Source: Shewanella violacea DSS12
GTDB lineage: Bacteria; Pseudomonadota; Gammaproteobacteria; Enterobacterales; Shewanellaceae
Length of the DNA: 64,000 bases
Reading direction: 5' to 3'
Assembly (NCBI RefSeq): GCF_000091325.1
Contig: NC_014012.1
Span: forward strand, 2,400,824-2,464,823
Part shown: positions 11,869 through 29,263 of the stretch, piece after piece
Layout: every line of letters starts with the position of its first letter
How positions within the stretch are numbered: the first letter of the stretch is position 1
The notes under the pieces: generated by a model
Told to the model about the DNA's origin: nothing
The model's input: the letters and a program-made list of their open reading frames with translations, nothing else
Databases searched by the model: none
Position numbers and translations under genes: made by a program

Positions 11869-11870
11869 CT

Positions 11871-13220
11871 ATGTTGCTATTAAAACCTGAGTTACAGGTA
11901 AAAAATAATACACTAAACAGTTACTTTCCTATCAGAACCAAAGACAGATATGACATCTTTGTATGGGATAGTGCACTAGGACATGTGGTAAAACACTCTT
12001 ATCGAAAAGAGTTTATTCCGTTTAAAGACCCAGCAGATCCTACCGGGAAAAAGAAAAAACAGTTTGAATTAGCAGATTTTAAAAACGCCAGCCAAAAAGT
12101 ATTTTTACGTAAGTTAGATGAAGCTGACTTCTGGCCAATAATCGATAAAATGTATTTCGAGGGAAATGAGCTGTTCAAAATCACTCCTGAATTTCTGCTT
12201 TTCAAAACAAATAAATCTGAAAATCACGTACGCGATGGTCGTCTCGGCAGTATGTTTGCCAGCTTATTACAAGACTTTGTATTTACAGATAAGCCACATT
12301 CGCAACTTAACTTTCTCGAGCAGCAGCTCTATGACGTGTTGAGCTTACACCTTAAAAGTCAAGACGTAGCAACGGGAGATTTAGTCAGTAAAGAAGCGCC
12401 ATACTTACCATTTATGGCTAACCACTTTCAGCAAGATCTTAAGTTTTTGAGCAAGCGTCCTAAATACTTACTCTCAATTTTCAAAGATTTCCTTCGACTT
12501 TACGCGCATCTATATACTGCACAGCTCGCATTAAATTTAAAAGACTGGCGTTCGGGTGAACCTAAGCCAAAATTGCATTACTTTATTTTGGACAGTGAAA
12601 AGGCCAGTGATGAACGTACTTTAGTTAAGAGTTATGGTCATAAGCAGCTTTCTGCTGCACTTTGGAGTATCTTTCCATATCTGGCAATGAACGAAAGTTT
12701 GCAAGATAATAAAAATCAGATCATGCCTATTTGGGCTTTAGCACAAAACTTGGCAGAGCATCCAACTTGTGCTGAAGCACTTGAAAGCTATGCTGCAGAC
12801 TTTAAAGCAAATAGACAACTCAATACCAGCATATCAAACTCACAAGACCCACTAGATCAGCTCCAAAACTTATTAAGGCTTAGTGCTGCACAATTTAGTC
12901 GCGGTGAATCCAGGTCTGACATCAACTTACAATACGTCAAATCGACCGAGTCAGAGCTTTGCTCTCACTTTATTCAAAGTCGAGGTCGTGCGGGGCGGGT
13001 GATGGTGTTTAATCAAGATTACCTTCTTTTGTTGACAAACCTTGCAGTGGGCGAAAAAGAAAAGCTACGTTTCCATGAGCTTATCTTAGCGTTCGAATCC
13101 AGAGGGGTGTTTTTTGACAAGCAGAGTCAACAGGCTCTAATCACATTTTATGAACGCATCGGCAATGTTGAGCGTATGAGTGACAGTGGAGATGCAGTAT
13201 ATGTCTTTAAAACAATTTAA
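11871..13220 (+). CDS. dptG: DNA phosphorothioation-dependent restriction protein DptG
   Basis: A 449-residue soluble protein without a nucleotide-binding motif that I can find. It lies between dptF (2-bp gap) and dptH (20-bp overlap), the invariant position of dptG. The N-terminus LKPELQVKNNTLNSYFPIRTKDRYDIF, an interior run of helices, and a C-terminal part with HELILAFESRGVFFDKQSQ are consistent with the family. The role is presumed structural or adaptor within the DptFGH complex. The assignment depends mainly on position and length, supported by the flanking genes. Confidence 0.85.
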   Translation: MLLLKPELQVKNNTLNSYFPIRTKDRYDIFVWDSALGHVVKHSYRKEFIPFKDPADPTGKKKKQFELADFKNASQKVFLRKLDEADFWPIIDKMYFEGNELFKITPEFLLFKTNKSENHVRDGRLGSMFASLLQDFVFTDKPHSQLNFLEQQLYDVLSLHLKSQDVATGDLVSKEAPYLPFMANHFQQDLKFLSKRPKYLLSIFKDFLRLYAHLYTAQLALNLKDWRSGEPKPKLHYFILDSEKASDERTLVKSYGHKQLSAALWSIFPYLAMNESLQDNKNQIMPIWALAQNLAEHPTCAEALESYAADFKANRQLNTSISNSQDPLDQLQNLLRLSAAQFSRGESRSDINLQYVKSTESELCSHFIQSRGRAGRVMVFNQDYLLLLTNLAVGEKEKLRFHELILAFESRGVFFDKQSQQALITFYERIGNVERMSDSGDAVYVFKTI

Positions 13221-16200
13221 CGATTTTCTAGCTGAACAATTTCTAAATTGGGGGCAGCAAGCCCTAAAAGCAGGTTTTAGATATCAGTTTCAGTCTCCTG
13301 ATATGGATAACAGCTTAAAACTGTTTAACTCAATAGTATCCAAATCTGATGGCAGCATAAATGTTAAAGGCACTAAGCTACCTGTAGTACAGTGTGGTGA
13401 AGTACTATTACTGCCTGTACTGCATAGTGAAGACTCGAGTAAATGTGCAGGCTTTACAGAAAACTTCATTTCACATCTGCGTGACGAGGTAGCTGGACAG
13501 TTTGGCGAGCTCGAAGGTTGTGCACTGCTTGTAATACATAACAGTATGTTAGATACCTTGATTAACTCTGCTGAGGATGTCGCGCAACCCACTAGCATTT
13601 GGCACCCTGAGCAGATAAAACACGCCATGCATGATCTGATTGATGATTTTAATGGGACTCGAAAAGTTTCTGAGTGTCTGCTCGAGTACAGGTTTAACCA
13701 GATTGTCGACGATGGCGCGACCATGTTTGGCTTTGAAGACCTCTACAAGGCGTTACTCGATGGTGATCTAAAGTTCAGCGAGCTTGGCTTACTAAATGAC
13801 CCCGCGATTCTCACTTGGGACGGCAAACCTGAGCAGATCAATAAACGCTTAGAAGAGAACAAGCGTCTCTACGAAGAGCTTGAGCGTATTACTCATCATT
13901 CCCCTAATGAATTAGAGGAAAAGCTAGCCGAAAAAGATTTCGGTGCCAAGTTTGTCACCAAGCACTTCGGTGGAGATGATACAGAACGCTGGAAAACTGA
14001 ACTTGAATTCAGTGCGTGTAAACAAGAGCAAGATGATAACCGTAAAAACCTGTTAGAGCTCGAAAGCGAATCCATTTTGCAGGGTGAGCTAATTGCCAAG
14101 AACAAGGTAGAAACTAAAGCCGGCCGCAGAGAGCGTCATCTTATCTTGGTGTTAGAGGATGATCAGCAAGACTTTGGTTTTGAGTTAACCTTTATTGGCG
14201 GGAAAATTGAACGCTATCAGTGTTCCATTATGCACAATAAAACCGACCTGATTGAAATTGCTAACCCAGTTAATTCTGGTGGGAAGCGAAGTCGTGTCAC
14301 CATAACAGGGCTATACCCGGACAAAGCGACGTTTTTCACTTTTAACCTTAAGCGAGAAAAAACCGCAGAACGTTACAAGTTTAAAGTTTTAGTCATTAGA
14401 AGTGGCGACTTCAACATTGATGCCTTCAGGAATAACTTTTTAATCGAGCCTTCATCATCGGCTAAAAAAGGTTCCAGAATTACGCTGCAAACTGAAGACA
14501 ACAGTTTTGTCATTGGCATTAATGGTGGACAAGAGGGCGGTAAAGCCGTGCTCGGTGAAATAGGCCAAGTTTTTGATAATCAAGCGACTAGTGAAATAGA
14601 CTTCGAGCAGATAGCTAATGAATCCGACGAGTTACATTTTATCGTTAAGGGACAAGACTCATCTTTAACCTTTAACGTAGAGGGAGCCATAGCAACTGAT
14701 ACACTAACGCTTCCGCTCATATTAGACAAAGACAGATTTGCTCGTCTCTATCAAGATAACTATCTAGGCAGCTTTAATCGCTCAAAAAATAAAGTGTTAC
14801 TCGATAATAAAGAGGTCTCACCTAAGGGCAGGCGCTTAACCTTACTGCAGTGGGAAGCTGAAATTGTCGATGAGCGCGATAAATCACAAGCTCCTTTGTA
14901 TTTAGTAGATATAGAAGCGACATATCCTTCTCTGTATGTTGCTTATCGTGCGCTATTTGATTACTACGTACAAAACCGCACACTACCGAGTCTTTGTAGT
15001 TGGGGCCCTGAGTATCGGGTTTTAGCCGGAGAGGTCGTTAAGCAATACAATAAGGCTATTTGCGCTATTGGTGATGATATTTTGCTCACCCCCGAGCAGA
15101 AGCAACTTATCAGTCTGGGCTTTGCCACATTTAACGGTCAAGGTTATATCACGCCGTTCCACCCCTTGGTAATGGCTTACTACTTAGCTTTAGCAGAGCG
15201 TGTTACTCAAGATGACAGCCAGAGTTTTAAGACCCTGCCAAAGGTGACTATAGATAGGCTTAATGTCCGTGGATTGTTGCCATTTGTTTATGATCCTATT
15301 CATGGTTTTGCATTCAGCCAGCTTGAGAAAGACAACTGTTTCTGGCTTGAGTTAGTGCCACAACAAGACACCAGTTTTTCTTATGTGCGCAAACTGGTCA
15401 AAGACAAGGTAGGTGAATTTAGAAATGCCTTCTCTGCACTGTTTACCGCAGGACCTAATGCGACACTTCTGATCAACTCAGTCAACAATAAGTTGAACCA
15501 TGAACTTTTCATGGGCCTTGTGGATTTTGTTAAAGCAAACAAAGACAAGGTGTGCCACATACACGTCAACTTATATGACGACAAGTTGGTTTATAGTGAG
15601 TTCGACAGGTTTGCCGAAACAGCGAGTTACGATAAGCTCAAGAGCTTATATGAGTTAGACAAGGGTGCCATTCGTGAGCAAGCTGACACCATTATTGACC
15701 TGCTACGTACCAGGCTTACCTACAGTAAGTTTGAGAATGACAAGATAGATGGCAAACAAGCCTACTCACATCTGAGCTTCTTCAGAAATAACACCAAGGT
15801 TGTGCCAAGAGACGTGAATGTCGACAAGCAACTCAGTGGAGTTGTTTGCCACGGTCTGCTGGCGGGAGAAGCTGCTGCAAATAAACAAGGCAGCTATTTC
15901 ACTGCATTTGGCCTAAATAAGGTTGATACTTCAGGCCACCCACACCTGCAGATAGCTCAAAAGTTGGGAGGGTTAATCAAACCTGCGTTACTTTCCAGTG
16001 AGCCGACGGGTAATTCTAAATCGATGGCGCTGGTTGTCAGCGATAACTTTAGAACCTTATTAGAGCGTTCCTATGAGAGCTCAATCTGGACTACCATTAT
16101 CGATCCTAAGGTTACCTTAGACTTTTTCGACAATGCCAAAGATATGGTGTTAATTCATTACTCGGATAATTACACCAACTCGGCCAATTACGATGCCATT

Positions 16201-18465
16201 ACTGTTACTCGTCAAACAGACCTGTACAAGAAAGTGCTCGAGCAAGATGAAGGTGGGATAACCGAAGAGTTTAATGCCTTTAATGGCGAGTGGCTGCTAA
16301 AGATGATCACCGCCAATGCTAATGATCGTAAAGAGAAGAAGGGCATTATAGGCGCGTACAAATTCGTAAACTGCTTATTGTCTAAATCTGATATTACCTG
16401 GGTACCGTTATCGGTCGCTGAGATGATACGTGTGACCGGCAATATTGGCCTTAAGATGTCAGACAGCGACTTCTCACGTAATGTCCAAGGCTACAAGTCT
16501 GGTCATATTTCAGATGATGTACTGTTTGTTGGTTTTAAAGACAAGCAAATGTACGTGCTGCCACTAGAAGTTAAAACCGGTATTAAACAGACTCACAATA
16601 AAGGGGTACAGCAGGCTAAAGAGCTTAAGCGTTACCTGTGTGAAGACATACTTGGCCGTAATGACTTTGCTGGTATGTTGTACCGTGGCTTATTTATCCG
16701 CCAGGTTCTCATGCAGATAGACAAGTATGAGCTGTATAACCTCTATTCTGACACATATTTCGATGCATTCTTAGCAGAACGTGAGTGGTGGTTACAAGGT
16801 GATTACGGCATCTCTGATTTAGCTGAGTATCCCGATGGTTTCATGTTGTCTCATGTTGAGAACGACACCTTCTTTGAAGCAGATTTTAATGAAGTCGACG
16901 ACATCTTAAAAATTCAGCTGCCTATTAGTTACCTCAAGCGACTCGTCAGCACACCACTGCGTGAGTTGATGAATGATGTCCGTCCTGAGCAACTCTGTCA
17001 TATACCTGAAAAGTATCTGCTCACACCAGAGAATTCGAGTGAAATTAGAAAAATAATCCCAACGAAAGTTGATGATATTGAGATCGGTTTACACGAGGAA
17101 AGTGTCGAAATACCAAGAGATTCAGGACGTGCGATAGAGCTAAATGACTTGTTTCCTGAGAGACATGTAGTAAAGCCTGCTCTTAAGACTGACAAAATAG
17201 ATGAAAGTGAAATTAGTGCTGATAAACATGTTGAGCTTGAAAAGGTCATTCCAGATACTACAGGTACTAGTAACAGTAAATTTAACAAGTCCTCCGAACC
17301 TATTGGGCAGAGCCCGATTGTTCAACGTGAGCAAAGTGATGAACCTATTAAAATCCTAATTGGTCATGATGTCCGCGATAACACCGAAGTGTATTGGGAG
17401 CCGACTAATACTGCCAAGTTTATGAATACGAACTCGGGCATTATCGGCACCATGGGTACAGGTAAAACACAGTGCACTAAATCAGTAGTGACTCAGTTAT
17501 ATCGTCAGCAAGACCGCAATGTCGATGGCAAGCCGATAGGTATTCTAATTTTCGATTACAAGTCCGACTATGTCGATGACAAGTTTTTAACGGCGACTAA
17601 TGGTAAAAAGTTCAATCTACATAAACTGCCATACAATCCGCTTAGTCTGTTTGGTGATACCCCCATGTTACCGGTGCATACGGCCCGTGGATTCTCTGAA
17701 ACCATGGGCAAGGCGTTTGGTTTAGGGCAAAAGCAGCAGCTGAAACTACGTAAGCTTATTGGTGAAGCATATGAATTGGCGGGAATCAAGAAGGGCGATC
17801 AATGCACCTGGAGTAAACCTGCACCAACGATAACTGATATCTGGGCACTGTTTGAAGAGACTGAGCCGACTGAAGATTCGCTTTATGCCGCGCTTGAAAG
17901 CTTATATGAGCTTGAGATCTTCGAAGACAATCATGAGAAGTGCACCAGTTTATATGAGCTGATCGATGGCATCACAGTTATTGAGCTTGCAGGTTACCCA
18001 TCGGAGATCCAAAACTTAGTTGTGGCTCTGACTATGGACTTGTTTTATTCGCAGATGCAGAAGCAAGGTAAACCAGAAGTGCAGGGGGACTTTAGGCAGG
18101 TCACTAAGCTATTACTTGTAGATGAAGCCGATAACTTCATGTCGCAAAACTTCCCCAGTCTTCGCAAGGTACTTAAAGAGGGCCGCGAATATGGTGTTGG
18201 TGTGATTCTGTCGACCCAAGATATTACTCATTTTAAGACCAGCGAGAATGATTACTCAACTTATATATTAAGTTGGATCGTCCATCGCGTGTCTCAGCTT
18301 AAAAACCAGGACATCAAGTCAATCTTCAATAAGGACGATAAGTCAGATCAAGATAACCTGATGAAGAGCATTCGTGAGCTAGATAAACACTACAGCTTAT
18401 ATGTTGATGGTGATAAGAAAGTGCAGAAGATCAAAGATAAAGCTTTTTGGGAGCTGCTTAGCTAA
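13201..18465 (+). CDS. dptH: DNA phosphorothioation-dependent restriction protein DptH, HerA-like ATPase
   Basis: About 1754 residues. The C-terminal third is a HerA/FtsK-type translocase ATPase: Walker A GTMGTGKT at about 1416-1423 and Walker B LLVDEAD at about 1638-1644, followed by LREGREYGVGVILSTQDITHF-like sensor sequence. The long N-terminal part has no motif I recognise. It is the motor of the DptFGH restriction arm. ATG at 13201 is chosen over the upstream GTG at 13180 because GGAG (13188-13191) is well spaced; this gives a 20-bp overlap with dptG. A strong terminator follows at 18487. No truncation is seen. Confidence 0.92.
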   Translation: MSLKQFNDFLAEQFLNWGQQALKAGFRYQFQSPDMDNSLKLFNSIVSKSDGSINVKGTKLPVVQCGEVLLLPVLHSEDSSKCAGFTENFISHLRDEVAGQFGELEGCALLVIHNSMLDTLINSAEDVAQPTSIWHPEQIKHAMHDLIDDFNGTRKVSECLLEYRFNQIVDDGATMFGFEDLYKALLDGDLKFSELGLLNDPAILTWDGKPEQINKRLEENKRLYEELERITHHSPNELEEKLAEKDFGAKFVTKHFGGDDTERWKTELEFSACKQEQDDNRKNLLELESESILQGELIAKNKVETKAGRRERHLILVLEDDQQDFGFELTFIGGKIERYQCSIMHNKTDLIEIANPVNSGGKRSRVTITGLYPDKATFFTFNLKREKTAERYKFKVLVIRSGDFNIDAFRNNFLIEPSSSAKKGSRITLQTEDNSFVIGINGGQEGGKAVLGEIGQVFDNQATSEIDFEQIANESDELHFIVKGQDSSLTFNVEGAIATDTLTLPLILDKDRFARLYQDNYLGSFNRSKNKVLLDNKEVSPKGRRLTLLQWEAEIVDERDKSQAPLYLVDIEATYPSLYVAYRALFDYYVQNRTLPSLCSWGPEYRVLAGEVVKQYNKAICAIGDDILLTPEQKQLISLGFATFNGQGYITPFHPLVMAYYLALAERVTQDDSQSFKTLPKVTIDRLNVRGLLPFVYDPIHGFAFSQLEKDNCFWLELVPQQDTSFSYVRKLVKDKVGEFRNAFSALFTAGPNATLLINSVNNKLNHELFMGLVDFVKANKDKVCHIHVNLYDDKLVYSEFDRFAETASYDKLKSLYELDKGAIREQADTIIDLLRTRLTYSKFENDKIDGKQAYSHLSFFRNNTKVVPRDVNVDKQLSGVVCHGLLAGEAAANKQGSYFTAFGLNKVDTSGHPHLQIAQKLGGLIKPALLSSEPTGNSKSMALVVSDNFRTLLERSYESSIWTTIIDPKVTLDFFDNAKDMVLIHYSDNYTNSANYDAITVTRQTDLYKKVLEQDEGGITEEFNAFNGEWLLKMITANANDRKEKKGIIGAYKFVNCLLSKSDITWVPLSVAEMIRVTGNIGLKMSDSDFSRNVQGYKSGHISDDVLFVGFKDKQMYVLPLEVKTGIKQTHNKGVQQAKELKRYLCEDILGRNDFAGMLYRGLFIRQVLMQIDKYELYNLYSDTYFDAFLAEREWWLQGDYGISDLAEYPDGFMLSHVENDTFFEADFNEVDDILKIQLPISYLKRLVSTPLRELMNDVRPEQLCHIPEKYLLTPENSSEIRKIIPTKVDDIEIGLHEESVEIPRDSGRAIELNDLFPERHVVKPALKTDKIDESEISADKHVELEKVIPDTTGTSNSKFNKSSEPIGQSPIVQREQSDEPIKILIGHDVRDNTEVYWEPTNTAKFMNTNSGIIGTMGTGKTQCTKSVVTQLYRQQDRNVDGKPIGILIFDYKSDYVDDKFLTATNGKKFNLHKLPYNPLSLFGDTPMLPVHTARGFSETMGKAFGLGQKQQLKLRKLIGEAYELAGIKKGDQCTWSKPAPTITDIWALFEETEPTEDSLYAALESLYELEIFEDNHEKCTSLYELIDGITVIELAGYPSEIQNLVVALTMDLFYSQMQKQGKPEVQGDFRQVTKLLLVDEADNFMSQNFPSLRKVLKEGREYGVGVILSTQDITHFKTSENDYSTYILSWIVHRVSQLKNQDIKSIFNKDDKSDQDNLMKSIRELDKHYSLYVDGDKKVQKIKDKAFWELLS

Positions 18466-18486: not shown

Positions 18487-18513
18487 AAAAAACACCCTTC
18501 GGGGTGTTTTTTT
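18487..18513 (+). terminator. rho-independent terminator after dptFGH
   Basis: ACACCCTTCGGGGTGT hairpin (CACCC/GGGTG stem with a tight UUCG-like loop) followed by seven T, 22 bp after the dptH stop. It closes the dpt operon, so the HNH gene at 18769 needs its own promoter. Confidence 0.92.
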
Positions 18514-18768: not shown

Positions 18769-19638
18769 ATGACTCCAAATGAGCTAAGGGGCGCAGTCTT
18801 AAATGTTAAGCGGTGGTCCAGAAGTGATCAACGAGCGCCAAATAAACCGTTAATGATGGTCTATGTACTTTCAAAGTACCTCCAAGGTCATGGCCAATTT
18901 TTCGATTATGAAAGTGAGGTTGACAGAGAAGTGACTGAGTTACTGAGAAGGTTCGGTCCTACTAGATCAATATATCATGCAGAGTATCCATTTTGGCGAT
19001 TAACTAATGACAATATATGGACGCTCAATAATGCTGAAACCTGCCTTCCACGTAAAAGTAATAATGACCCAAGTAAGCGTGAACTGATCAAGCATCAAGT
19101 TACTGGCGGCTTCAATTCTGCAGCTTTTAAAATCCTCTCCCAAGACTCAAACTTTACTTTAGAGTTGTTGGAGTCAATTCTCCAAGATAGTTTCCCTCAA
19201 AGTGTTGTTGAAGATATTACAAGACACCTCGGTCTTGAGTTCAACTTCAAGCAAATTCAAAAGCGCGATCCCAGATTTAGAAAAGAGGTATTGCGAGCCT
19301 ATAATTACCAGTGTGCCGTTTGTGGTTTCGATCTTCGGATGGATGATGTCAGTGTCGGATTAGAAGCTGCGCACATTAAGTGGAAACAGTTTAATGGCCC
19401 ATGTGAAGTAAGTAATGGCTTGACGCTATGCGCAGTGCATCATAAAGCGTTTGATAAAGGTGCATTTTCTATTACAGAAGACTTTAAAGTGAAGCTATCA
19501 GATAGCCTAAATGGAGGTGAGCAAGTACAGCGTTTATTTTTTGATTTTGAACATAAATTAATTAATTTACCGAAGAAGGATAATTGTCTGCCTAATTTAG
19601 AGTTTTTGTTCTGGCATCAGAAAGAAGTGTTTAAATAG
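18769..19638 (+). CDS. HNH endonuclease with probable phosphorothioate-binding (SBD-like) N-terminus
   Basis: A 289-residue protein. The C-terminal half is a McrA-type HNH nuclease: Cys182-x2-Cys185, AAHIKW with His202, Asn216 (SNGLTLC), and HHKAFDKGAFSI with His224/225. The N-terminal half carries RSDQRAPNKPLMMVYVL (about 18-34) and AEYPFWRL (71-78), which resemble the R-x-P-x-KP-LLL and YPF-RL signatures of sulfur-binding domains in ScoMcrA-like type IV nucleases that cut phosphorothioated DNA. If correct, it reads the mark made by DndBCDE. It starts at ATG 18769 after ATAGGG. It is separated from dptH by a terminator and from the next gene by 220 bp. HNH is certain; the SBD call is by motif only. 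Confidence 0.8.
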   Translation: MTPNELRGAVLNVKRWSRSDQRAPNKPLMMVYVLSKYLQGHGQFFDYESEVDREVTELLRRFGPTRSIYHAEYPFWRLTNDNIWTLNNAETCLPRKSNNDPSKRELIKHQVTGGFNSAAFKILSQDSNFTLELLESILQDSFPQSVVEDITRHLGLEFNFKQIQKRDPRFRKEVLRAYNYQCAVCGFDLRMDDVSVGLEAAHIKWKQFNGPCEVSNGLTLCAVHHKAFDKGAFSITEDFKVKLSDSLNGGEQVQRLFFDFEHKLINLPKKDNCLPNLEFLFWHQKEVFK

Positions 19639-19860
19639 CGTACTAGTTGCCTTTAATGGCCGGTTTTAGACAAGTTAGGAAGCAGTTTATTATCAATTAA
19701 GTTAATGATTTAATGTACAAAATGTACCCCCGTTTTTCCAAAGAACTAAAGAAGGGTGAGAGTATGGTGTAGGAATAATTCTGACTACTCAAGCCATCAC
19801 TACTTTAAAACCATACTAGGTATTAAAAAAATATTAATTATAAAGAAAGGTATTTTGAAC

Positions 19861-21054
19861 GTGAAAATAAAAATTTTAGATTCAGATTTACATTCAATTC
19901 ACACAAGAATTTCACAGGGTATAATTGATTTACAACCCGATTTTCAACGAGGATCAGTTTGGTCTCCGCCTAAGCAAAAAAAATTAGTTGACTCGATTTT
20001 AAGGGGGTGGCAGGTTCCCCCCGTACATGTGATTCGTACTGAAGAGTATTCATTAGAAGTATTAGATGGACAGCAAAGACTAAGAGCTGTATATGATTTT
20101 ATGAATAATGAATTCAAAATCAAAGGGGACTTTGAGCCGATAGATTCATCCATTGAAGAACTAAATGGACTTTACTATAAACAGCTTCCAGAGCCAATTA
20201 AAAGAAAACTTGATTTCTATTCAATTAGAATGTTGGAAGTGTATGATTATGAGCCTGGTGAAACTGGTGAATTGTTTAATCGTTTGAATCAGTCCCTGAA
20301 TTTAACTGCGGCAGAAAAAAGGAATGCACAGATCGGTGTGACACGTACACAAATAAAAAGTCTGTCTGTTCTTATGCATAATGTTGGGTTAGATACTGCA
20401 TTTATCGGATTTTCAAACACTAGAATGGCATATGATGATTTGTTTGCAAAACTATCAACTTATTTAGAAAAGCGTAACATACGGGCTAAAGTTACAGATT
20501 CAGAATTATATGAGCAATACAGAAATGCAATACCTTATGATGATAAAATAATTGAATCAATCGAATATACACTTAGGTTATTATCAGAAGTAAAGCAAGA
20601 GCTTATTGAGCGTGATTTGAGTATACATATAACTAAAGCAACTCTCTTTAGTTGGTTGTTTTTTATATCTTCAATATATATAAATGATAAAGAAAAAATT
20701 GATAAAAATCGAATTAAAGAAAGTTTTATAACGTTTGAATCAATGAGGTATCGTTTTAAGAACAATATCGATGACTCTGTACGTTGGAGTGGTATACCAT
20801 TCCCTAAAGAAAAGATTCATGCGATATTTTCTCTATTTAATGAAAGAGCTAGCTCAAGGGTTATGAGTACAGGATCTTTATTAATTAGAGATTGGGCTAT
20901 TTCTTTATATTACTATCTTCAAAATATGGACTATGCAGGGTTAACTTATCAGCTAAATGAACTTGGAAAAATAATTATCAGTTTAAATAGTGATGAATTG
21001 GACATAAAAGCCACGGTTGAGCGATTAGCTGAAAGTGGAGATCAAAATGCTTGA
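19861..21054 (+). CDS. DUF262 (ParB-like) defence-type protein
   Basis: A 397-residue protein with an N-terminal DUF262 domain: QPDFQRGSVWSPPKQKKLVDSILRGWQVPP (about 25-54) and LEVLDGQQRLRAVYDF (65-80). The DGQQR and DFQR motifs are those used by GmrS- and SspE-type proteins for nucleotide hydrolysis or DNA sensing. Unlike GmrSD or SspE, no DUF1524 HNH motif follows; the C-terminal 250 residues are helical and unassigned. GTG at 19861 is chosen (TTG 19855 also possible) because AAAGAAAGG lies just upstream and the domain starts there. The stop overlaps the ATG of the ATPase gene by 8 bp, so the two form a coupled pair. Composition is visibly more A/T-rich than dpt. Confidence 0.82.
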   Translation: MKIKILDSDLHSIHTRISQGIIDLQPDFQRGSVWSPPKQKKLVDSILRGWQVPPVHVIRTEEYSLEVLDGQQRLRAVYDFMNNEFKIKGDFEPIDSSIEELNGLYYKQLPEPIKRKLDFYSIRMLEVYDYEPGETGELFNRLNQSLNLTAAEKRNAQIGVTRTQIKSLSVLMHNVGLDTAFIGFSNTRMAYDDLFAKLSTYLEKRNIRAKVTDSELYEQYRNAIPYDDKIIESIEYTLRLLSEVKQELIERDLSIHITKATLFSWLFFISSIYINDKEKIDKNRIKESFITFESMRYRFKNNIDDSVRWSGIPFPKEKIHAIFSLFNERASSRVMSTGSLLIRDWAISLYYYLQNMDYAGLTYQLNELGKIIISLNSDELDIKATVERLAESGDQNA

Positions 21055-22639
21055 TAGGAAAGCAGAGGTATCTAACTTTTGGAGGCATCTTAAAGAGCGT
21101 AAAGGTTTTAAACTTAAAGTGTCTAGAATATTTATCAAAGGAGATGGGATTATGGATACAATCCCTCTTGATATTAATAGTGCATTGACAACTATTTGCG
21201 GGAAAAATGGTGCTGGTAAAACTACAGTTTTAAAATCTATCTACTCTGTCTTGACAGGAATAGAAGCTGAAAATACCTTTCACAATGTAGAAGATAGTTA
21301 TGTTGCAATTAATGAAGTATCTAACAAAGTAAATAAATTTTACGGGAATAATTATACTACCTTTGATAATGTCTTATATTTAGAGCCAGCAGATGATGCT
21401 ATAATCATAAAAAATAAAATAATAAATGATTCAACATTTAATGATGATTATATAGAAAATGGTGATGAAAGTCCTATTCTCGATGAATACTTAGGCTATA
21501 TAAAAAAAATACTATCAAATGACATCGAAAAAATAACCGTAATTGAAATCGAAGGTGTGTTGGAAAAAGACCGTATATTGCCATATTTTCAGGTTTATAA
21601 AAGAGGAATAAAGTATGGGTCACTTGAGATGGGGCAAGGCGAGCATAAGATTTTGTATCTAGTATGGAGTATGATAACGGTTAAAACTAACTCAATTTTG
21701 ATGTTAGAAGAGCCTGAAGCTTTCTTGTGCTCAAAATCACAAGAGTATTTAATGGACTTCATAGCCTGTATAATCGATAGAAAGAAGCTTCATGTATTTT
21801 TATCCACACATTCAGATCATATTTTAAGAAAACAAAATGTAACATCTTGTTTAATTGTTAAAAGAAATAATGAAGATAAAATTTGCCTGACATCAGAGAA
21901 AGACAAAAGTAAATATCTAGCAGCTTTAGGTTTAGAACCTTCAAAAAAAGGTGTTTATTTAGTCGAAGATGAGTTTGCAAAACTAGTCATACAAACTATA
22001 TTAAATGAAACCAATTCAAGCCTTTTACAAGAGTTTTATATAGATCAATTACAAGGTGAATCGCATGTTTTACAAGTTGCTATGCATTACAAATCAAGTA
22101 ATATGAAAATAGTATGCTTATTAGATGCCGATCAAAAAGGAAAGTTAAAAGAGGATAGTTTCTTGATACCTATTGCATATTTACCTGCAAATCAGATAGT
22201 TGCACCTGAACAAGAAATAATTTCTTATGTTAAGAGTAATGTAGATAGCTTTGTCCAAAGAATGAATTCATCTAAAGATAATATTAAAAGAGAAATTGTT
22301 TCCTTAGAAGAGAATCACCATGATTGGTTCGAAGAGTTAAGTGCAAGGCTAAATTTTACAAATAGTGAAATATTGAAAGTTAATGCTATTTCTTTATGGA
22401 TTCAGGGTAACCGAGATAAAATTGATAAGTTTGTACATGTATTGGAAAACTTACACGAAAATTTGACTGTAAAAATTGAAAAGAAAAATGAAAATTATTT
22501 TGTTAATTCTAACGGAATAACATATGACCTAGATCCTAAACTAAAAGAAAGAATTAATCTTGAATTCTACAATGGTAAAGATATGAAAGGATATCTACAG
22601 TTTTCAAAAGGAAATGAGGTTTTTAATTTTATTGTATAA
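21047..22639 (+). CDS. OLD-like AAA ATPase with C-terminal TOPRIM nuclease-type domain
   Basis: A 530-residue protein. ATPase: Walker A GKNGAGKTT (52-60), a signature-like GSLEMGQGEHK (192-202), Walker B ILMLEEPEAFL (218-228) and STHSDH (254-259). The TOPRIM region follows: YLVEDEFAKLV (305-315, the acidic first motif) and LLDADQKGK (359-367, the DxD motif). This is the OLD/RecF-like architecture seen in anti-phage nucleases such as GajA. ATG 21047 is chosen over the upstream GTG 21035 because GTGGAG precedes it; it overlaps the DUF262 stop by 8 bp. Strongly A/T-rich, unlike dpt or dnd genes, suggesting separate acquisition. The partner suggests a two-gene defence module; activity is inference. 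Confidence 0.82.
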   Translation: MLDRKAEVSNFWRHLKERKGFKLKVSRIFIKGDGIMDTIPLDINSALTTICGKNGAGKTTVLKSIYSVLTGIEAENTFHNVEDSYVAINEVSNKVNKFYGNNYTTFDNVLYLEPADDAIIIKNKIINDSTFNDDYIENGDESPILDEYLGYIKKILSNDIEKITVIEIEGVLEKDRILPYFQVYKRGIKYGSLEMGQGEHKILYLVWSMITVKTNSILMLEEPEAFLCSKSQEYLMDFIACIIDRKKLHVFLSTHSDHILRKQNVTSCLIVKRNNEDKICLTSEKDKSKYLAALGLEPSKKGVYLVEDEFAKLVIQTILNETNSSLLQEFYIDQLQGESHVLQVAMHYKSSNMKIVCLLDADQKGKLKEDSFLIPIAYLPANQIVAPEQEIISYVKSNVDSFVQRMNSSKDNIKREIVSLEENHHDWFEELSARLNFTNSEILKVNAISLWIQGNRDKIDKFVHVLENLHENLTVKIEKKNENYFVNSNGITYDLDPKLKERINLEFYNGKDMKGYLQFSKGNEVFNFIV

Positions 22640-22645
22640 TATTAG

Positions 22646-22704
22646 TAGGGTGAAGTTAAATGTCGTCTTATTTATTATAAGGCGACATTAATTAGGGTGA
22701 AGTT
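22646..22704. terminator. hairpin flanked by 12-bp direct repeats after the ATPase gene
   Basis: A 13-bp stem (AATGTCGTCTTAT with ATAAGGCGACATT, one wobble) at 22660-22690 lies between two copies of TAGGGTGAAGTT at 22646-22657 and 22693-22704. It could end transcription of the DUF262/ATPase pair, though no T-run follows. The direct repeats could be a target-site duplication or a slippage product. Confidence 0.5.
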
Positions 22705-23380: not shown

Positions 23381-23503
23381 ATGTTTGGCAACAGCACTCG
23401 GCTTGATGTCACTTTGCTCTGTGGGATCACTGATATGCGTAAATCAATCGACGGCTTAAGTAACATCGTGGCCTATGAACTCGAGCAAGAACCCTGCGGT
23501 TAG
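23381..23503 (+). mobile_element. IS66-family tnpB remnant
   Basis: The 40-codon open frame MFGNSTRLDVTLLCGITDMR followed by KSIDGLSNIVAYELEQEPCG matches the start of IS66-type TnpB, the small accessory protein (normally about 115 residues). It stops after CG-TAG. No tnpA or tnpC and no terminal inverted repeats are visible nearby. Bases 23504-23640 include a second short frame (ISKDYRAVLGGHSNMMTRLL) that I cannot place. Confidence 0.8.
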
Positions 23504-24006: not shown

Positions 24007-24378
24007 CTATTTTGTTGCAATAGCTTCTGAAAGGTCATTGATTTTTCGATGGTTTCTTATAGCTGCTATGCCATCTTCTACATGCGCAGCCCAGGCTGAC
24101 ATCAATGGGCGACCTTCTAAACCTGGGTATTTAAGTTTAAGTAGCTGTTCACTCACCAACTGCGTGTCACCCATCCAGGTGATTTTATCTAATACTAAAT
24201 TGCCATCTAACTTGCGTTCAGTCTCTATAGGTTCTGCAGGTAGGTAGGTGAAACCAGATTCAATTGACCTAAAAAATGCAATTCGAGATGACACGTTTGG
24301 GGCAATCCCCGTGTACTGTTTTAGCTTTTTTAGATGCTCTTCAGTTTGTTTGGTTAGATTCATGCGATTAGGTAGCAT
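24007..24378 (-). CDS. dndE: DNA phosphorothioation protein DndE
   Basis: A 123-residue protein with the DndE features RMNLTKQTEEHLKKLKQYTG, PNVSSRIAFFRSIESGF and a final AAHVEDGIAAIRN. DndE is a small DNA-binding helix bundle of the modification complex, reported to bind nicked dsDNA, and is needed with DndC and DndD for swapping a non-bridging oxygen for sulfur in the DNA backbone. Last gene of dndBCDE; its ATG overlaps the dndD stop by 1 bp. A decayed copy lies 1 kb downstream. Length is typical. Confidence 0.95.
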   Translation of the reverse strand: MLPNRMNLTKQTEEHLKKLKQYTGIAPNVSSRIAFFRSIESGFTYLPAEPIETERKLDGNLVLDKITWMGDTQLVSEQLLKLKYPGLEGRPLMSAWAAHVEDGIAAIRNHRKINDLSEAIATK

Positions 24379-26393
24379 TAGTTAGCTCCTACTACTTTAT
24401 TTTGTTGAATGTTACGTTCCCAGAAATATCCTTCACGTAATACCGACGATTTTGTAACTCCATCGAATTTTATCTCGTAGGCATGAGAAATATCATCTTT
24501 TAGATAATCACTACTAAAATATGATTCATCGATCTCGGTATCTGTAGACAAGATAATTACCTGATGGCTAGCTTCTGGGAAGTAGTGCTCTATTAGTTTG
24601 TTTCTGTGCTTAGAATCTAGGCGACCAAGTGGTGTATCGATAATAATAGGTAGTTTCTTACCCGATGTTTTTCCGAGCGCTTCTAGAATTGAGATGGCAT
24701 ATATTTGTTTTTCACCAGCAGATAAGCCTTTACGGCTAATTACGTGCTTGTTTTCATCGATCAATTCAACATCAAATGTCTTTGTGTTGATACGTGCAGA
24801 AAGTTGCAGGTCTTCCTTACGTGCGAGTTTCCGATAGCTCTTGATGAATTCAGTTTCCAGTTGTTTTACTCGTACCGCGGTAAGTTGCTCACTAAACTCA
24901 GCAAGCAGTGCATGGGTATTTTGTGCGTTGGTGAGTGAAGCTTCTGCTGTTGAAGCGACTTTATGTTTATCGTGTAGCTTTTGAACCTTACGGGCATAAT
25001 CTATGGCTTCACGGTATTTTTTCTTTGCAGCTTCAGTGTTATCTCTGTGTTCGACAATAGCCGCTGTGCGATGACTATTGAGCACTTTAAGCGCTTCTAA
25101 TTGAATTTCAAGTTGTTCTTGTTCTGGTGCTCGAGCAATATTGACTGAGATCGCTGCCACTTGCTCTTCGACTATTGTTAAGCGCTTACGTACAAGGTCA
25201 AAACGCTTGCGTGAAGAAGGGGCTTGGTTGCTCACCTGGGCTTTTAGCTGGTCATATTCTCTGTCCGATAAATCCAGTAAAATATCTGTTTTAACTTGCT
25301 CAGCTTCTCTCTCAGTTAAACATTCTTTGATTTGCTCCAGTGCGACAAAGGAGTTAGAAAGTGTGAATGATAACTTTTTTTCAAGCTCAACCAGAAAGCC
25401 ATTTAATTCAGTATTAAAGCTATCTGCTTGTTTAGCTTTCTTCTCTGCTTCCAACTGACTTAGCAAGTTTTTCATCGCATTAGGTGCAAGCGCGAAGGGT
25501 AGGTCACCTTCGATTTCAGTTCTTAATGCTCGCTCAAGTTCTTTTCGTTCTGCATCTAACTCAAACTGTTTAGATTTTTCTTGCTCACGACTTTGTGCCC
25601 AAGCACCACCTCGTGAAGAAAGTTCTTGTTCAGTTTTTTCGATATCTTTAGTGATAAGGTCAATCTTGGCCAAGCAAAGTGATGACTTATTCGCTAATTC
25701 GACCCCAGCGTGTTCCGCTGATGTTCTTTCTGATTCCAGTTTTTCAATTTGAGCTTTGATGTTATCAGGCATAGCAGCCGCGTCATGGCGTCTTAGATAA
25801 ATAGCTAAGTCACTACGTAACCGCTCAGCAACATCGATTCCTAATAAACGACGTACTGCCGTTTGTAAGACTTCACCAGATTCATCTTCTGCAAGATCGG
25901 CAATCTTTTCGCCATCGAAGAAGAATAGGTCCGAAATACCTGGTGGTATTAATTCGTTGAGGAAACTTTGGCATTGATCGTAACTCATGCTGCTAAGCTC
26001 GGAATTATCTTGTTCAAGTACCAGTTTATCTTTTTGGCCGCGTTTCCAACCGCGAGTGACACTGTACTCACTTTCAATGCCATTATGGCTATGGGTAAAG
26101 ATGAGCTGAATTGAAGTTTTATCTACACTGATGCCTACGCCGTTATGGATCAGCGCATCGAGTTGCTCCTGATATTGAGCAGAGCTCATGCCTCGACCGA
26201 AAGCAGCACGACCATAAAGCGCTACGCGTACTGCTGTTAGGATAGAGGTCTTACCCGAACCATTCAATCCACCAAATAAAATGATGGGCGATGGGGTCGT
26301 TTGATGTTTACGGTTTATACGTGGTGCCAGGTCTATTTCGTGTACGCCACGAAATACTCTGAAATTATTGATCACAAGGCTTTTGATTATCAT
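24378..26393 (-). CDS. dndD: DNA phosphorothioation ATPase DndD
   Basis: A 671-residue SMC/Rad50-like ATPase. Walker A GLNGSGKTS is at residues 42-50, a DLFFFDGEKIADLA motif at about 155-170, long coiled coils cover about 200-520, the signature KGLSAGEKQIYA and Walker B KLPIIIDTPLGRLD near the C-terminus. DndD supplies ATP-driven DNA work in the modification complex with DndC and DndE. It is separated from dndC by one base and overlaps dndE by one. The gene is intact; the 3' end exists in a second, broken copy at 23053-23320. Confidence 0.96.
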   Translation of the reverse strand: MIIKSLVINNFRVFRGVHEIDLAPRINRKHQTTPSPIILFGGLNGSGKTSILTAVRVALYGRAAFGRGMSSAQYQEQLDALIHNGVGISVDKTSIQLIFTHSHNGIESEYSVTRGWKRGQKDKLVLEQDNSELSSMSYDQCQSFLNELIPPGISDLFFFDGEKIADLAEDESGEVLQTAVRRLLGIDVAERLRSDLAIYLRRHDAAAMPDNIKAQIEKLESERTSAEHAGVELANKSSLCLAKIDLITKDIEKTEQELSSRGGAWAQSREQEKSKQFELDAERKELERALRTEIEGDLPFALAPNAMKNLLSQLEAEKKAKQADSFNTELNGFLVELEKKLSFTLSNSFVALEQIKECLTEREAEQVKTDILLDLSDREYDQLKAQVSNQAPSSRKRFDLVRKRLTIVEEQVAAISVNIARAPEQEQLEIQLEALKVLNSHRTAAIVEHRDNTEAAKKKYREAIDYARKVQKLHDKHKVASTAEASLTNAQNTHALLAEFSEQLTAVRVKQLETEFIKSYRKLARKEDLQLSARINTKTFDVELIDENKHVISRKGLSAGEKQIYAISILEALGKTSGKKLPIIIDTPLGRLDSKHRNKLIEHYFPEASHQVIILSTDTEIDESYFSSDYLKDDISHAYEIKFDGVTKSSVLREGYFWERNIQQNKVVGAN

Positions 26394-26394
26394 T

Positions 26395-28161
26395 TTAAAA
26401 GTCCACCTTAGCTTGCTTGTCTAGCGCCAGGATTTCAGTCTCGTACTTTTCGATTTGATCTTTATGGATATCAAAGTCTGACTTACTCTGTAGTTGAGCA
26501 TGTCGCTGTTTAATTTCCTCCAAAGAACCCCAATCCTGCCTAAGTAAGGTACCTAGCTTATCGAACACTCCGGTGCGTCGGCTTAAACCTTCGAGGGAAA
26601 GCTCCAGATCGAGAAGTTTCTGTACCATCTCAGGCTCTACCGCATATTGTTCACTTAAATCTTGCAGTATTTGTGCTTCAAGTTCGCCGAAACTAGAGTT
26701 GTCATTAATCACCCAGTTAAGATCGGTACCGAATACTTCACGATAAATCTTTGGCAGTGTATCGGCCCAATCCGGCTCATTAGGATCGTTGAGCCATTCT
26801 TGACGAATAGCATGAAGCTCGGGCTCAGTGACTAAGGTGACAGAATAACCGTTTTTATTAAATTCTCTTTGTTGTACCAATAACTCAGTGAGCCACTCTT
26901 TACGGCACTTAAGCCAATAAGGTCCTGGCACATGTGCGCGCTCAGATGATAACTCTTGACCCTCTTTAACACGTTGATAATTAACTTTACCTACACGGCG
27001 TTTGAAGTTGCGATAAATATCTTTATTCGCTGGTACATTCGTTTCAGCAAGCTTATTTCGGAAGGTGAGTAGAGGTTGCATCCACTCTTCGCCATTTTTA
27101 ATCAGGCTTTCCATGGCACGATCTTTAGTGACAACTGTACAGGTCCAACAGCCAAATCGTGAGTTACCACATGATGGTGTGCTGTCATCGATGACCATAG
27201 GGCACTCACCTTGATCAGATGAGTCTTTATACAGGTTCCAAAGAGTGAGGTTTTTACCGCCCCAAGGATTTTCCCATTCAAGGTCATACTCATTTGACCA
27301 TTTTTTACCTATGCCCATAGGGGAGATTGTCACCTCTAAGCTACAGGCACGAATGAGTTTCCACACATCATCCATACTCCAAGTATCGATAGGGGTATAA
27401 ATAAAGGCATTTGCTAGTGTGGTATGACGAGCGAGTCGGGTATTTTCAATTTTATGTTTTGCAATAACCTGAGCACGAGAAGCACTTTCTTGACTACGTG
27501 AACCAAGAATCACTATGACTTCATCATGTTGTGAGACTTTCTCTTTAATAAAATCACTCACTGGATCGATTTTCATCCGCTCGGTACACCAACGGAAACT
27601 TTGGGTCGGGGCAGGGTAGCCTTTGCCCAATAAGCAAGACCAGAATGTTTGATGAGGCTTAGGTAATACCTTGTGAGTAGTCAAAGGTAAACCATCACGC
27701 TTAGCATGGTTACCAATAGTCTCTAGTGACTTGTTGACGTGATCCACTACCAGTGGTGTTTCCACTAAGGTATCTGATGCTACGACATAAACAGGTTTGG
27801 TACGTTTAGCCTTATCGAGTGACAATAATGCTAAATAAATGAGTGTAACAACGGCCGTTGAGTCTTTACCGCCGCTATAGCCAATAACCCAAGGGCGATT
27901 GTCGGAACAATAAACACTTTGAACATCATCAATAAAATGTTGAAGTAAAAAGCCTTCATTGCTTTTTTGCTCGCGCAATAAGTCACGACATAAATTCATA
28001 CTGACTTGATGCTTTAATGAATCATCAAGCTTGTTATATTTATCTAACTCTACAGGTAAAGTGTCACTATTTTTATATCGCTTGAAGCCGGCAAAGAATT
28101 CTTTTTGAATATATTCTAACTGCTCATCGTCTAGCGCATCGGCTTGGAATAAATCAGCCAT
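26395..28161 (-). CDS. dndC: DNA phosphorothioation sulfurtransferase DndC
   Basis: A 588-residue PAPS reductase-like PP-loop protein. The PP-loop SGGKDS is at about 96-101, followed by a RWCTERMKIDPV motif and the Cys cluster SCGNSRFGCWTC (with a preceding Cys in GECPMV), which matches the 4Fe-4S site of DndC. It activates the DNA backbone with ATP and passes the sulfur. ATG 28161 is preferred to GTG 28173 because GTGAGG lies seven bases before it; this gives an 8-bp overlap with dndB. The sulfur donor DndA is not encoded in the window, so an IscS-type enzyme must serve. Confidence 0.96.
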   Translation of the reverse strand: MADLFQADALDDEQLEYIQKEFFAGFKRYKNSDTLPVELDKYNKLDDSLKHQVSMNLCRDLLREQKSNEGFLLQHFIDDVQSVYCSDNRPWVIGYSGGKDSTAVVTLIYLALLSLDKAKRTKPVYVVASDTLVETPLVVDHVNKSLETIGNHAKRDGLPLTTHKVLPKPHQTFWSCLLGKGYPAPTQSFRWCTERMKIDPVSDFIKEKVSQHDEVIVILGSRSQESASRAQVIAKHKIENTRLARHTTLANAFIYTPIDTWSMDDVWKLIRACSLEVTISPMGIGKKWSNEYDLEWENPWGGKNLTLWNLYKDSSDQGECPMVIDDSTPSCGNSRFGCWTCTVVTKDRAMESLIKNGEEWMQPLLTFRNKLAETNVPANKDIYRNFKRRVGKVNYQRVKEGQELSSERAHVPGPYWLKCRKEWLTELLVQQREFNKNGYSVTLVTEPELHAIRQEWLNDPNEPDWADTLPKIYREVFGTDLNWVINDNSSFGELEAQILQDLSEQYAVEPEMVQKLLDLELSLEGLSRRTGVFDKLGTLLRQDWGSLEEIKQRHAQLQSKSDFDIHKDQIEKYETEILALDKQAKVDF

Positions 28162-29263
28162 TAGATGCCTCACTACTTGGTATATGTTGGTTTTCTAGGG
28201 CTCGCTCTTCCGGAGTTAATGAAAGTGACAAAGTTTGCTTAAGTGCGTTGGTGGTCAACATGATGTTGGTAGACGCTTTACTTAACTTGCCATGTAGCAT
28301 GCTTCGGTGGGCCCATACAGGATTGGATTTTCTCCAATCGACATTTTTTAATTGCTTAATTGTTTCTTTCCATTCATTAGGTTGTGCTGTAATTAATGAA
28401 CAACCCAATGAGCCCAATGCATGCAATCCAACACCATGTGCATGGATATATTCTTGCCTAAATTGGGAAGGGGATAACTCTTTTTTTATTACCATTTGCC
28501 ATTCTGGAGTCGCTGCAAACACCGCTTGCCAATATTCAGAAGCTAATTGCTTCTCTTCATCAGTGAAACTGTCTTTCATGCCTTTACCCAGCAGTGCTCG
28601 GTTTGCTTGCTTCAAGCTACTCAGGGTGAAGAGTTTACCGCTCTTAGAGCTGATGCTTGATTTCTCCATCTCAGTAAAACCGTTAAAAGGTTTAATGGTT
28701 TTTGCTAAATGCCTTGCAAGCTCGGCACTCTCGTCTCTGTGATCGTACAGCGCACCTAAGGAAGGGCTGGGTTTAACCGCATATTTGTTCAGGTCGGCAA
28801 ACATCTGCTGGCTTCGCTCAAGACCTTCATCGACAAAAAACAACACAGGTATGTTGTCATGGGCTAATTCAGGTTGCTCTTTTATTGCGGCTTCGATTGC
28901 GGCACGTCTGTGCTGACCGTCATTGATAAGGATTTGAGCATCCATTGGTATTTTTAATGTACCTAAGTTAGGTGTATCCAGATGATCACTTTCTTCGAAG
29001 GTGACTGTTGAAGCCACTGAAACTGTTAAGGCTGAAAAAACATAGCCTTTGGGATTGTCTACAAGATAACGTACCATCTCTGGGATACGTGATTTATTTA
29101 ACGTACGCTGAGCCCTTAGCTCTGGAGGCACTTCTTCTTCGTCAAACACGAAGATTTTAGGAATAGTGCTTAAGGGACAAGTCGCTATGTAGAAAGGCTT
29201 TCCAGCTTGAATCCCCCTCACTGCTGGAAATGAAAAACAATAACCATCTTGTGCGCTTCTCAT
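28154..29263 (-). CDS. dndB: DNA phosphorothioation regulator DndB
   Basis: A 369-residue DGQHR-domain protein: ILINDGQHRRAAIEAAIKE with DGQHR at residues 115-119, preceded by YVFSALTVSV and followed by FFVDEGLERSQQMFADLNKYA. DndB is not required for modification but controls its level, and is reported to act as a transcriptional repressor of dnd genes in other bacteria. First gene of dndBCDE; AGGAG precedes its ATG. The 90 bp upstream hold many ACGT-centred motifs and a good promoter, suggesting autoregulation. Confidence 0.95.
   Translation of the reverse strand: MRSAQDGYCFSFPAVRGIQAGKPFYIATCPLSTIPKIFVFDEEEVPPELRAQRTLNKSRIPEMVRYLVDNPKGYVFSALTVSVASTVTFEESDHLDTPNLGTLKIPMDAQILINDGQHRRAAIEAAIKEQPELAHDNIPVLFFVDEGLERSQQMFADLNKYAVKPSPSLGALYDHRDESAELARHLAKTIKPFNGFTEMEKSSISSKSGKLFTLSSLKQANRALLGKGMKDSFTDEEKQLASEYWQAVFAATPEWQMVIKKELSPSQFRQEYIHAHGVGLHALGSLGCSLITAQPNEWKETIKQLKNVDWRKSNPVWAHRSMLHGKLSKASTNIMLTTNALKQTLSLSLTPEERALENQHIPSSEASNG

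Follow-up and report, generated by a model that had tools for sequence, protein, structure and literature searches.

The window analysed here, a stretch of 64,000 nucleotides from Shewanella violacea DSS12 (contig NC_014012.1, positions 2,400,824 to 2,464,823 of the forward strand), holds a complete Dnd phosphorothioate (PT) island in which dptF-dptG-dptH on the + strand (10273-18465) and dndB-dndC-dndD-dndE on the - strand (29263-24007) face each other with their 3' ends, and the junction between dptH and dndE is a slot whose content varies between genomes. In the window this slot carries two separable modules, namely an SBD-HNH nuclease and a pair formed by a stand-alone DUF262 protein and an OLD-type ATPase, the latter being a genuine unit of two genes with a strong but not invariable tie to dnd. 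A preliminary description, made from the letters of the window, had set the HNH, DUF262 and ATPase genes, all on the + strand, exactly between the two arms of the island, and this placement is confirmed by the end of dptH at 18465 and by dndE at 24007-24378 on the - strand.

The dptH-dndE junction as a variable cargo slot

An order sample of 394 genomes was searched for DndC, which scored above the cut-off in 22 of them, and the neighbourhood of DndC was read in all 22. In 17 of these (the window and 16 others), dptH and dndE point towards each other and enclose further genes, mostly on the dptH strand; the other five were left out of the slot table since no dptH lies within the stretch (L051, L056, L060), dptFGH are arranged otherwise (L054) or the contig ends (L070). 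In the class sample, the DptH search matched only the genome of the window (1/274). Slot cargo was assigned by Pfam, and some short open reading frames (ORFs) were left out, e.g., in L063, L066, L067, L068, and L069. Cargo of the ParB fold, either DUF262 or DndB-like, scores above the curated cut-off in 9/17 slots (window, L052, L055, L058, L059, L062, L063, L066, L071) and under it in 4/17 (L057, L061, L064, L065), and Pfam gives no ParB-fold match in the last four (L053, L067, L068, L069), of which L067 contains sugar and transport genes. SBD-HNH proteins are present in three slots (window, L064, L071), the DUF262-OLD pair in that of the window (1/17), and a DndI-type DUF262-DUF1524 protein, with its PF07510 match, in L058; PIN, AIPR, and GHKL proteins without an obvious link to PT also occur among the cargo. 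Four slot proteins are related to each other (L057:9800-10933, L062:8367-9488, L081:12706-13830, and L065:9937-11400); three of them match PIN_8, and the one in L065 matches a Swt1-like HEPN model barely above the cut-off. In nine of the ten slots with a DndB-like DGQHR protein, a small hydrophobic and likely membrane protein, judged from Kyte-Doolittle windows alone, is encoded just upstream (Table 1), and the tenth slot, L066, encodes a 180-residue protein without hydrophobic segments. The hydrophobic protein and its DndB-like neighbour look like a separate PT-linked membrane module.

The same junction varies within a single species. In Escherichia coli, the dndED query from strain B7A finds matches in 204 of 5426 genomes, and nine regions show five slot contents, i.e., two versions of the pair, a hydrophobic protein with a DndB-like DGQHR protein, an Mrr-type nuclease with a 206-residue protein, and, in ST2747, a slot that is empty and 284 bp long (L083:8673-8958); a type I Zorya locus follows dndB in this strain. 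Strains 98203 and BY68, which carry the pair and the DndB-like cassette, respectively, share 98.2% identity up to a point where 28 bp of the 98203 dptH gene are left, do not match across the slot, and are alike again (97.2% identity) once 25 bp of dndE have been entered from its 3' end, a flank pattern that is repeated by ECA64 with 97.0% and 93.2% identity. When the E. coli pair with its flanks was used as the query, 31 of the 201 matching genomes held at least 80% of it, and among the best 60 of the 201 matches the remaining 29 all carry the DGQHR protein in place of the pair. Since different cassettes lie between near-identical flanks, the natural reading of these sequences is that cassettes have been exchanged by recombination through the near-constant flanks. 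In E. coli, the space separating the dpt and dnd clusters has been described as encoding one to three hypothetical proteins (Ho 2015, PMC4373003), in passages that mention no domains, modules, or exchange between near-identical flanks.

The DUF262-OLD pair as a two-gene unit

The preliminary description supposed that the pair is linked to phosphorothioation, and this is borne out in eight of 11 distinct lineages, which have the pair in or near dnd, and not in the remaining three, which belong to genomes without DndC; a pair common at a distance from PT genes, which would have spoken against the supposition, is not what is seen. The pair resides in the slot in the window, in the B7A and 98203 types of E. 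coli, in Alteromonas antoniana, and in Thalassomonas haliotis (L081), and it lies near dnd in Pseudomonas K2I15 and Pseudomonas 30_B (3.2 kb each) and in Photorhabdus noenieputensis (1.3 kb); no DptH match was obtained in the genome of Pseudomonas 30_B, and DptH of Photorhabdus is on another contig than the pair. Both E. coli versions occupy the Dnd slot in every genome that has them (43/43): the B7A type in 12 of 5426 genomes, all with a continuous dptH-pair-dndE arrangement, and the 98203 type in 31 of 5426, where the arrangement refers to the best place per record (H80 has a second place). A chance placement of the pair was rejected because it recurs at the same place in other genomes. A scan of genome contigs gave at least 45 loci, of which seven were annotated (L004-L010) and L011-L048 were left out; L010, an ATPase relative without DUF262, is excluded from the count. 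With the ATPase profile, the window scores 751.5 bits in the order sample and the next genome 90.9, with no strong second genome; among 196 genomes of family f6 there is one match (G400, 446 bits), among 24 genomes of f11 none (best score, 88.8 bits), and in the class sample of 274 genomes G692 (170 bits) alone joins the window; a tblastn search of plasmids with the ATPase returned only matches of 20-26% identity. The trees of the DUF262 protein and of the ATPase recover the same two linked groups, indicating that the two genes travel together. In three E. coli strains the pair is annotated in pieces, with a split DUF262 gene in HUM3355 (L001:7935-9140) and split annotations in EC416 and APEC 102026; such fragmented copies may hint at a cost.

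The DUF262 protein matches PF03235 with 75.3 bits, which is the sole match to this family in the genome of the window (E <= 0.001), and its residues 35-313, counted in the longest ORF, match PADLOC NsnA with 101.9 bits. It lacks the C-terminal HNH part, as originally noticed, since no match to GmrSD_C/DUF1524 (PF07510) emerged from the Pfam scan, and its DGQQR motif is conserved across 56 alignment rows save for one residue in one row; a sequence search of the PDB with this protein found nothing. The predicted structures have a predicted local distance difference test (pLDDT) score of 88.7 for the DUF262 protein and 87.3 for the ATPase. The OLD-like nature of the ATPase is upheld by AAA_15 and AAA_21 matches above the cut-off and by the OLD nuclease 6p74 as the best Foldseek match of its model (E 1.3e-11, 555 alignment columns), at a template modelling (TM) score of 0.27, which means that the domain arrangement differs from that of 6p74. 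The ABC ATPase motif residues G52, N54, G55, G57, and K58 are present in all 25 rows that cover the region (two of the 27 rows are gapped), E222 and H255 in 27/27, and so are E307 and D360/D362, which are located at the ends of predicted strands and which we take to be the acidic residues of the TOPRIM domain (E; DxD). The VIA-align rows of the ATPase are SMC/Rad50 and PtuA heads covering residues 19-298, uninformative for TOPRIM. In PADLOC, the best match of the ATPase is HEC-04 (109.2 bits, residues 139-474), and NsnB scores 73.1 bits.

The A/T-richness applies to the DUF262 gene (G+C content, 0.324) and to the ATPase gene (0.293) compared with 0.39-0.43 for dpt and dnd, and not to the HNH gene, which is ordinary (0.393). 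The pair contrasts clearly with its neighbours in both E. coli versions and in Photorhabdus, less so in T. haliotis and Alteromonas, where the difference is small, and hardly at all in Pseudomonas 30_B. A recent acquisition by the genome of the window alone was rejected as its cause, because the pairs of both E. coli versions and Photorhabdus are A/T-rich too. That the cassette is decaying, functionless cargo, A/T-rich, lying beside an IS66 fragment and endowed with a weakened sulfur pocket (see below), would also fit the E. coli copies annotated in pieces (H84, H162, H163), but the three genes of the window are open and retain their motifs, and the A/T-richness common to several lineages makes it look like a trait of the module, albeit a weak one in T. 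haliotis and an almost absent one in Pseudomonas 30_B, so that decay is a very improbable explanation.

The SBD-HNH nuclease as a separate module

The HNH protein was recognized as SBD-type from the outset, and NCBIfam NF045808, named "phosphorothioated DNA-binding restriction endonuclease", matches it with 360.9 bits against a cut-off of 180. The preliminary description went further in suggesting that the three genes could form one split system; in such a system the SBD-HNH protein would read PT, the DUF262 protein would switch, and the OLD ATPase would cut. This suggestion is not supported, inasmuch as the pair sits in the slot without HNH in the two E. coli versions (as read in the slot only) and in A. 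antoniana, and a search of eight other pair genomes, whole though some are drafts, gave an SBD-HNH match in T. haliotis and none in the other seven (A. antoniana, both Pseudomonas, Photorhabdus, Hymenobacter, Sphingomonas, and G692). Conversely, the SBD-HNH protein keeps company with unrelated slot partners in L064 (ParB-like and Mrr-like) and L071 (membrane-type and DndB-like), and in the window a gap of 222 bp and an unlike base composition set it apart from the DUF262 gene. HNH and pair do nonetheless co-occur in the window, in T. haliotis, where HNH, DUF262, and ATPase genes are adjacent as in the window, and probably in Pseudoalteromonas ruthenica, for which adjacency is suggested by the assignment of all three to a contig of 189649 bp; co-occurrence is thus real in places and not required. 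Over the slots, a 2x2 test of the association between HNH and pair gives p = 0.18, with T. haliotis itself found via the pair. A single three-protein system was accordingly rejected as highly improbable, its initially small odds having been lowered further by the SBD-HNH search of the pair genomes.

SBD-HNH enzymes cut PT-DNA, and their adjacency to dnd has been regarded as rare (<3.6%) and put down to enzymes that are inactive, weakly active, or directed at other targets (PMC7461809); the wHTH(SBD)+SAD+HNH architecture has been counted in 698 dnd taxa (PMC10853773). In the sampled genomes, the protein shows a weak enrichment with DndC (3/22 DndC-positive genomes vs 15/372 others, p = 0.07). 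The sulfur pocket consists of His116, Arg117 (Lys in most homologues), Tyr164, and Pro165 (PMC6224610), giving a pattern of H-R/K plus Y-P (PMC6224610, PMC7461809). In the protein of the window, the pocket His is replaced by Asn (N25), and K26, Y73, P74, and the HNH residues are retained. The Dnd-linked pockets read N-K-Y-P in the window and in T. haliotis, N-K-Y-S in L064, and H-K-Y-P in L071, i.e., Asn in 3/4. In genomes without DndC, the unlinked proteins have His-Lys, and Met or Leu before Pro, in 11/11 readable cases, out of 12 taken from the 15 genomes above the cut-off (the first motif of L101 is unreadable; G251 and G068, with in-frame stops, and G169, which is partial, were left out). 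The difference in motif between linked and unlinked proteins has p = 0.009, a value that ignores shared ancestry, the two sets being different clades, and the alignment of 121 rows (the window and 120 listed homologues) has Asn in 61, His in 58, and a gap in two. The module would be an independent, predicted PT-DNA nuclease whose changed pocket may spare PT sites of the host. Two cases weigh against such a safeguard, at least as a general one: the Vibrio-type SBD-HNH of L071 adjoins dnd and yet retains His, and in L060, a stretch without dptH, a 191-residue protein that matches the SBD part only (L060:6248-6823) has an H-K-Y-P pocket at about 9 kb from dndC. The Asn pocket is a sequence-based lead on the coexistence of SBD-HNH and dnd and no proof, linkage and clade being confounded; it offers a concrete pocket residue for the stated puzzle of a PT-cutting enzyme encoded beside PT-making genes (PMC7461809).

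A possible mechanism and its alternatives

The pair combines a DndI-type NTPase domain that lacks the nuclease with a neighbouring protein that supplies one, which leads us to propose a split sensor and effector. With modest confidence, we consider it on balance probable that the DUF262 protein is a nucleoside triphosphate (NTP)-driven reader of DNA or of its PT state that gates the OLD nuclease, and that the SBD-HNH protein acts beside it as an independent PT-nuclease. The DUF262 protein would bind DNA and hydrolyse NTP via its DGQQR pocket, and its NTPase cycle would depend on how the DNA is modified, most probably on the PT mark from DndBCDE. Through a putative physical complex, it would license or release the dimer of the partner ATPase, whose TOPRIM domain would then nick or cut invading DNA. 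The work done by a single polypeptide in DndI and SspE would be divided in two, with an OLD nuclease replacing HNH, and the pair would be a divided equivalent of DndI/SspE and of Menshen. The Hymenobacter plasmid NZ_CP110137 (L104:773-7879), where an NsnA-like DUF262 gene and then a SIR2 gene come after sspB-sspC-sspD, provides further evidence that PT systems can include NsnA-like DUF262 proteins of the stand-alone kind. On this plasmid the two genes occupy the place where an SspE-type gene might be expected.

Several observations weigh against a PT-reading pair. At the PxYQ place, matched by motif and not by structural superposition to the PT-sensing Tyr of DndI and SspE, 56/56 rows of the pair family have Phe, and the structural alignments to BrxU and DndI agree only loosely, with a large root-mean-square deviation. 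The pair genomes Hymenobacter L008, Sphingomonas L009, and G692 have no DndC match, hence PT is not obligatory across the family, and the identities of their proteins to those of the window (25, 24, and 20% for the ATPase; 38, 38, and 32% for DUF262) overlap those of the more distant linked pairs, so that they are not clearly more remote. The DUF262 relatives on plasmids adjoin SIR2, HEPN, helicase, and ATPase genes, and only one of nine (nine of the 14 plasmid matches were covered) lies beside PT genes within about 6 kb. These facts could be accommodated by a self-contained, Menshen-like abortive or restriction system that is independent of PT, responds to a phage product or to DNA ends, and uses the Dnd slot as a safe and readily exchanged harbour. 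The three genomes without DndC, the replacement of the sensing Tyr, the eight of nine plasmid relatives away from PT genes, the best PADLOC matches (Menshen NsnA and the candidate HEC-04), and the PIN, AIPR, and GHKL cargo would all suit it. A mere harbour, however, would not be expected to receive all 43 pairs of E. coli, nor to separate the eight linked DUF262 proteins from the three unlinked ones in their tree (support, 0.917), even if the ATPase tree leaves the placement of G692 ambiguous (0.570); we therefore hold PT independence to be rather unlikely, though a serious alternative to the PT-reading pair.

More tentatively, and somewhat short of probable, the dptH-dndE junction could be a dedicated exchange site, and PT a shared hub for interchangeable modules that often combine a ParB-fold reader with a differing effector and that move by recombination through the conserved flanks. 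The readers would be DUF262 or DndB-like DGQHR proteins, and the effectors an OLD nuclease, a DUF1524-HNH domain, an Mrr-type nuclease, or a small membrane protein. If true, a split PT reader with an OLD nuclease as its effector would be seen for the first time in the pair, and the DndB-like protein with its membrane partner would form a PT-coupled membrane effector.

Gene layout of the window

The features of the island are collected in Table 1. A hairpin with a T run, located about 20 bp 3' of the dptH stop, was seen by eye and does not appear in the scan listing; it probably separates the HNH gene from dptH transcription. For the DUF262 gene, GTG 19861 is the likely start rather than 19756, as it fits most homologues, and AAAGAAAGG stands upstream of it (by eye). 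The overlap of 8 bp between the DUF262 and ATPase genes, already reported, corresponds to 21047-21054 provided that the ATPase starts at ATG 21047, the start used by its closest relative, P0002, the longest ORF beginning at GTG 21035. Between the ATPase and dndE there are 1367 bp that include the IS66 TnpB fragment, and in this stretch, just 3' of the ATPase, the direct 12-base repeat TAGGGTGAAGTT is found at 22646 and 22693. Beyond the island, a gene of 678 codons adjoins dndB (29436-31472), with a weak methyltransferase match under the cut-off.

Table 1. Features of the Dnd island in the window and slots with a hydrophobic and a DndB-like protein
Feature	Position	Strand	Evidence
dptF (DndF)	10273..11868	+	TIGR03238 536.1 bits
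dptG (DndG)	11871..13220	+	TIGR03236 326.1 bits
dptH (DndH), left edge of slot	13180..18465	+	TIGR03237 1499.9 bits
Probable intrinsic terminator after dptH	18487..18513	+	Hairpin and T run, by eye; absent from scan listing
SBD-HNH nuclease, PT-dependent family	18769..19638	+	NF045808; alignments
Stand-alone DUF262 (ParB/Srx-fold NTPase), helical C-terminal part, without GmrSD_C/HNH; PADLOC NsnA-like	19861..21054	+	PF03235, PADLOC NsnA, DGQQR, model
OLD-type ABC ATPase with C-terminal TOPRIM	21047..22639	+	Walker and TOPRIM residues conserved; model; Foldseek 6p74
IS66 TnpB fragment, between ATPase and dndE	23381..23500	+	PF05717 28.5 bits vs cut-off 26.6
dndE, right edge of slot	24007..24378	-	TIGR03184 78.0 bits
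dndD	24378..26393	-	TIGR03185 527.6 bits
dndC	26395..28173	-	TIGR03183 532.9 bits
dndB	28154..29263	-	TIGR03233 479.2 bits
Hydrophobic + DndB-like slots: L052, L055, L059, L062, L063, L065, L071, L084, L089	e.g., L071:11000-12724

Relation to known systems and significance

The PADLOC names NsnA and NsnB presumably belong to Menshen (NsnABC), a system of three genes in which the OLD nuclease is a separate third gene. The pair resembles it in combining an NsnA-like DUF262 protein with an OLD nuclease and in matching both names, and differs in consisting of two genes that lie inside a Dnd locus, one of which encodes both ATPase and TOPRIM; the TOPRIM residues are within the ATPase itself, only two genes overlap, and the next recognised gene is dndE. 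HEC-04 is a candidate that consists of one gene lying within another defence locus, and unlike it, the ATPase of the window is paired with DUF262. With respect to EcoWI/SprMcrA-type SBD-HNH enzymes, the protein of the window is alike in its family match, well above the cut-off, and in its preserved HNH residues, and unlike them in its place beside dnd and in the His to Asn change. In DndI, DUF262 is fused to an HNH nuclease and its NTPase responds to PT via Tyr25, the PT-sensing Tyr of DndI and SspE being Y25/Y30; in this system, named IscS-DndBCDE-DndI, dndI and dndFGH share a transcript beside dndBCDE (PMC11662687). The pair shares with DndI and SspE a DUF262 NTPase with DGQQR tied to a PT locus, and L058 has a DUF262-DUF1524 protein in the same slot, whereas the effector of the pair is a separate OLD-type protein instead of a fused HNH, and its DUF262 protein has Phe for the sensing Tyr.

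Menshen already combines a DUF262 gene of the stand-alone type with a predicted OLD nuclease (PMC10952713), DUF262 proteins that sense PT are known from DndI and SspE, and HNH, REase, GIY-YIG, PIN, and HEPN genes have been recorded near dnd (PMC10853773), in a paper whose main text has no DUF262 and whose single mention of OLD is in the reference list. No description of the DUF262-OLD pair in Dnd loci, or of an exchange slot there, was found in the accessible parts of the open-access literature, so that the idea of an undescribed type stands for the pairing inside Dnd loci and not for the DUF262 and OLD theme as such. If the proposed reading is right, the way in which PT loci acquire new antiviral effectors would become testable in one strain by varying the content of the slot, and the "hypothetical proteins" annotated between dpt and dnd would be candidate exchangeable defence modules.

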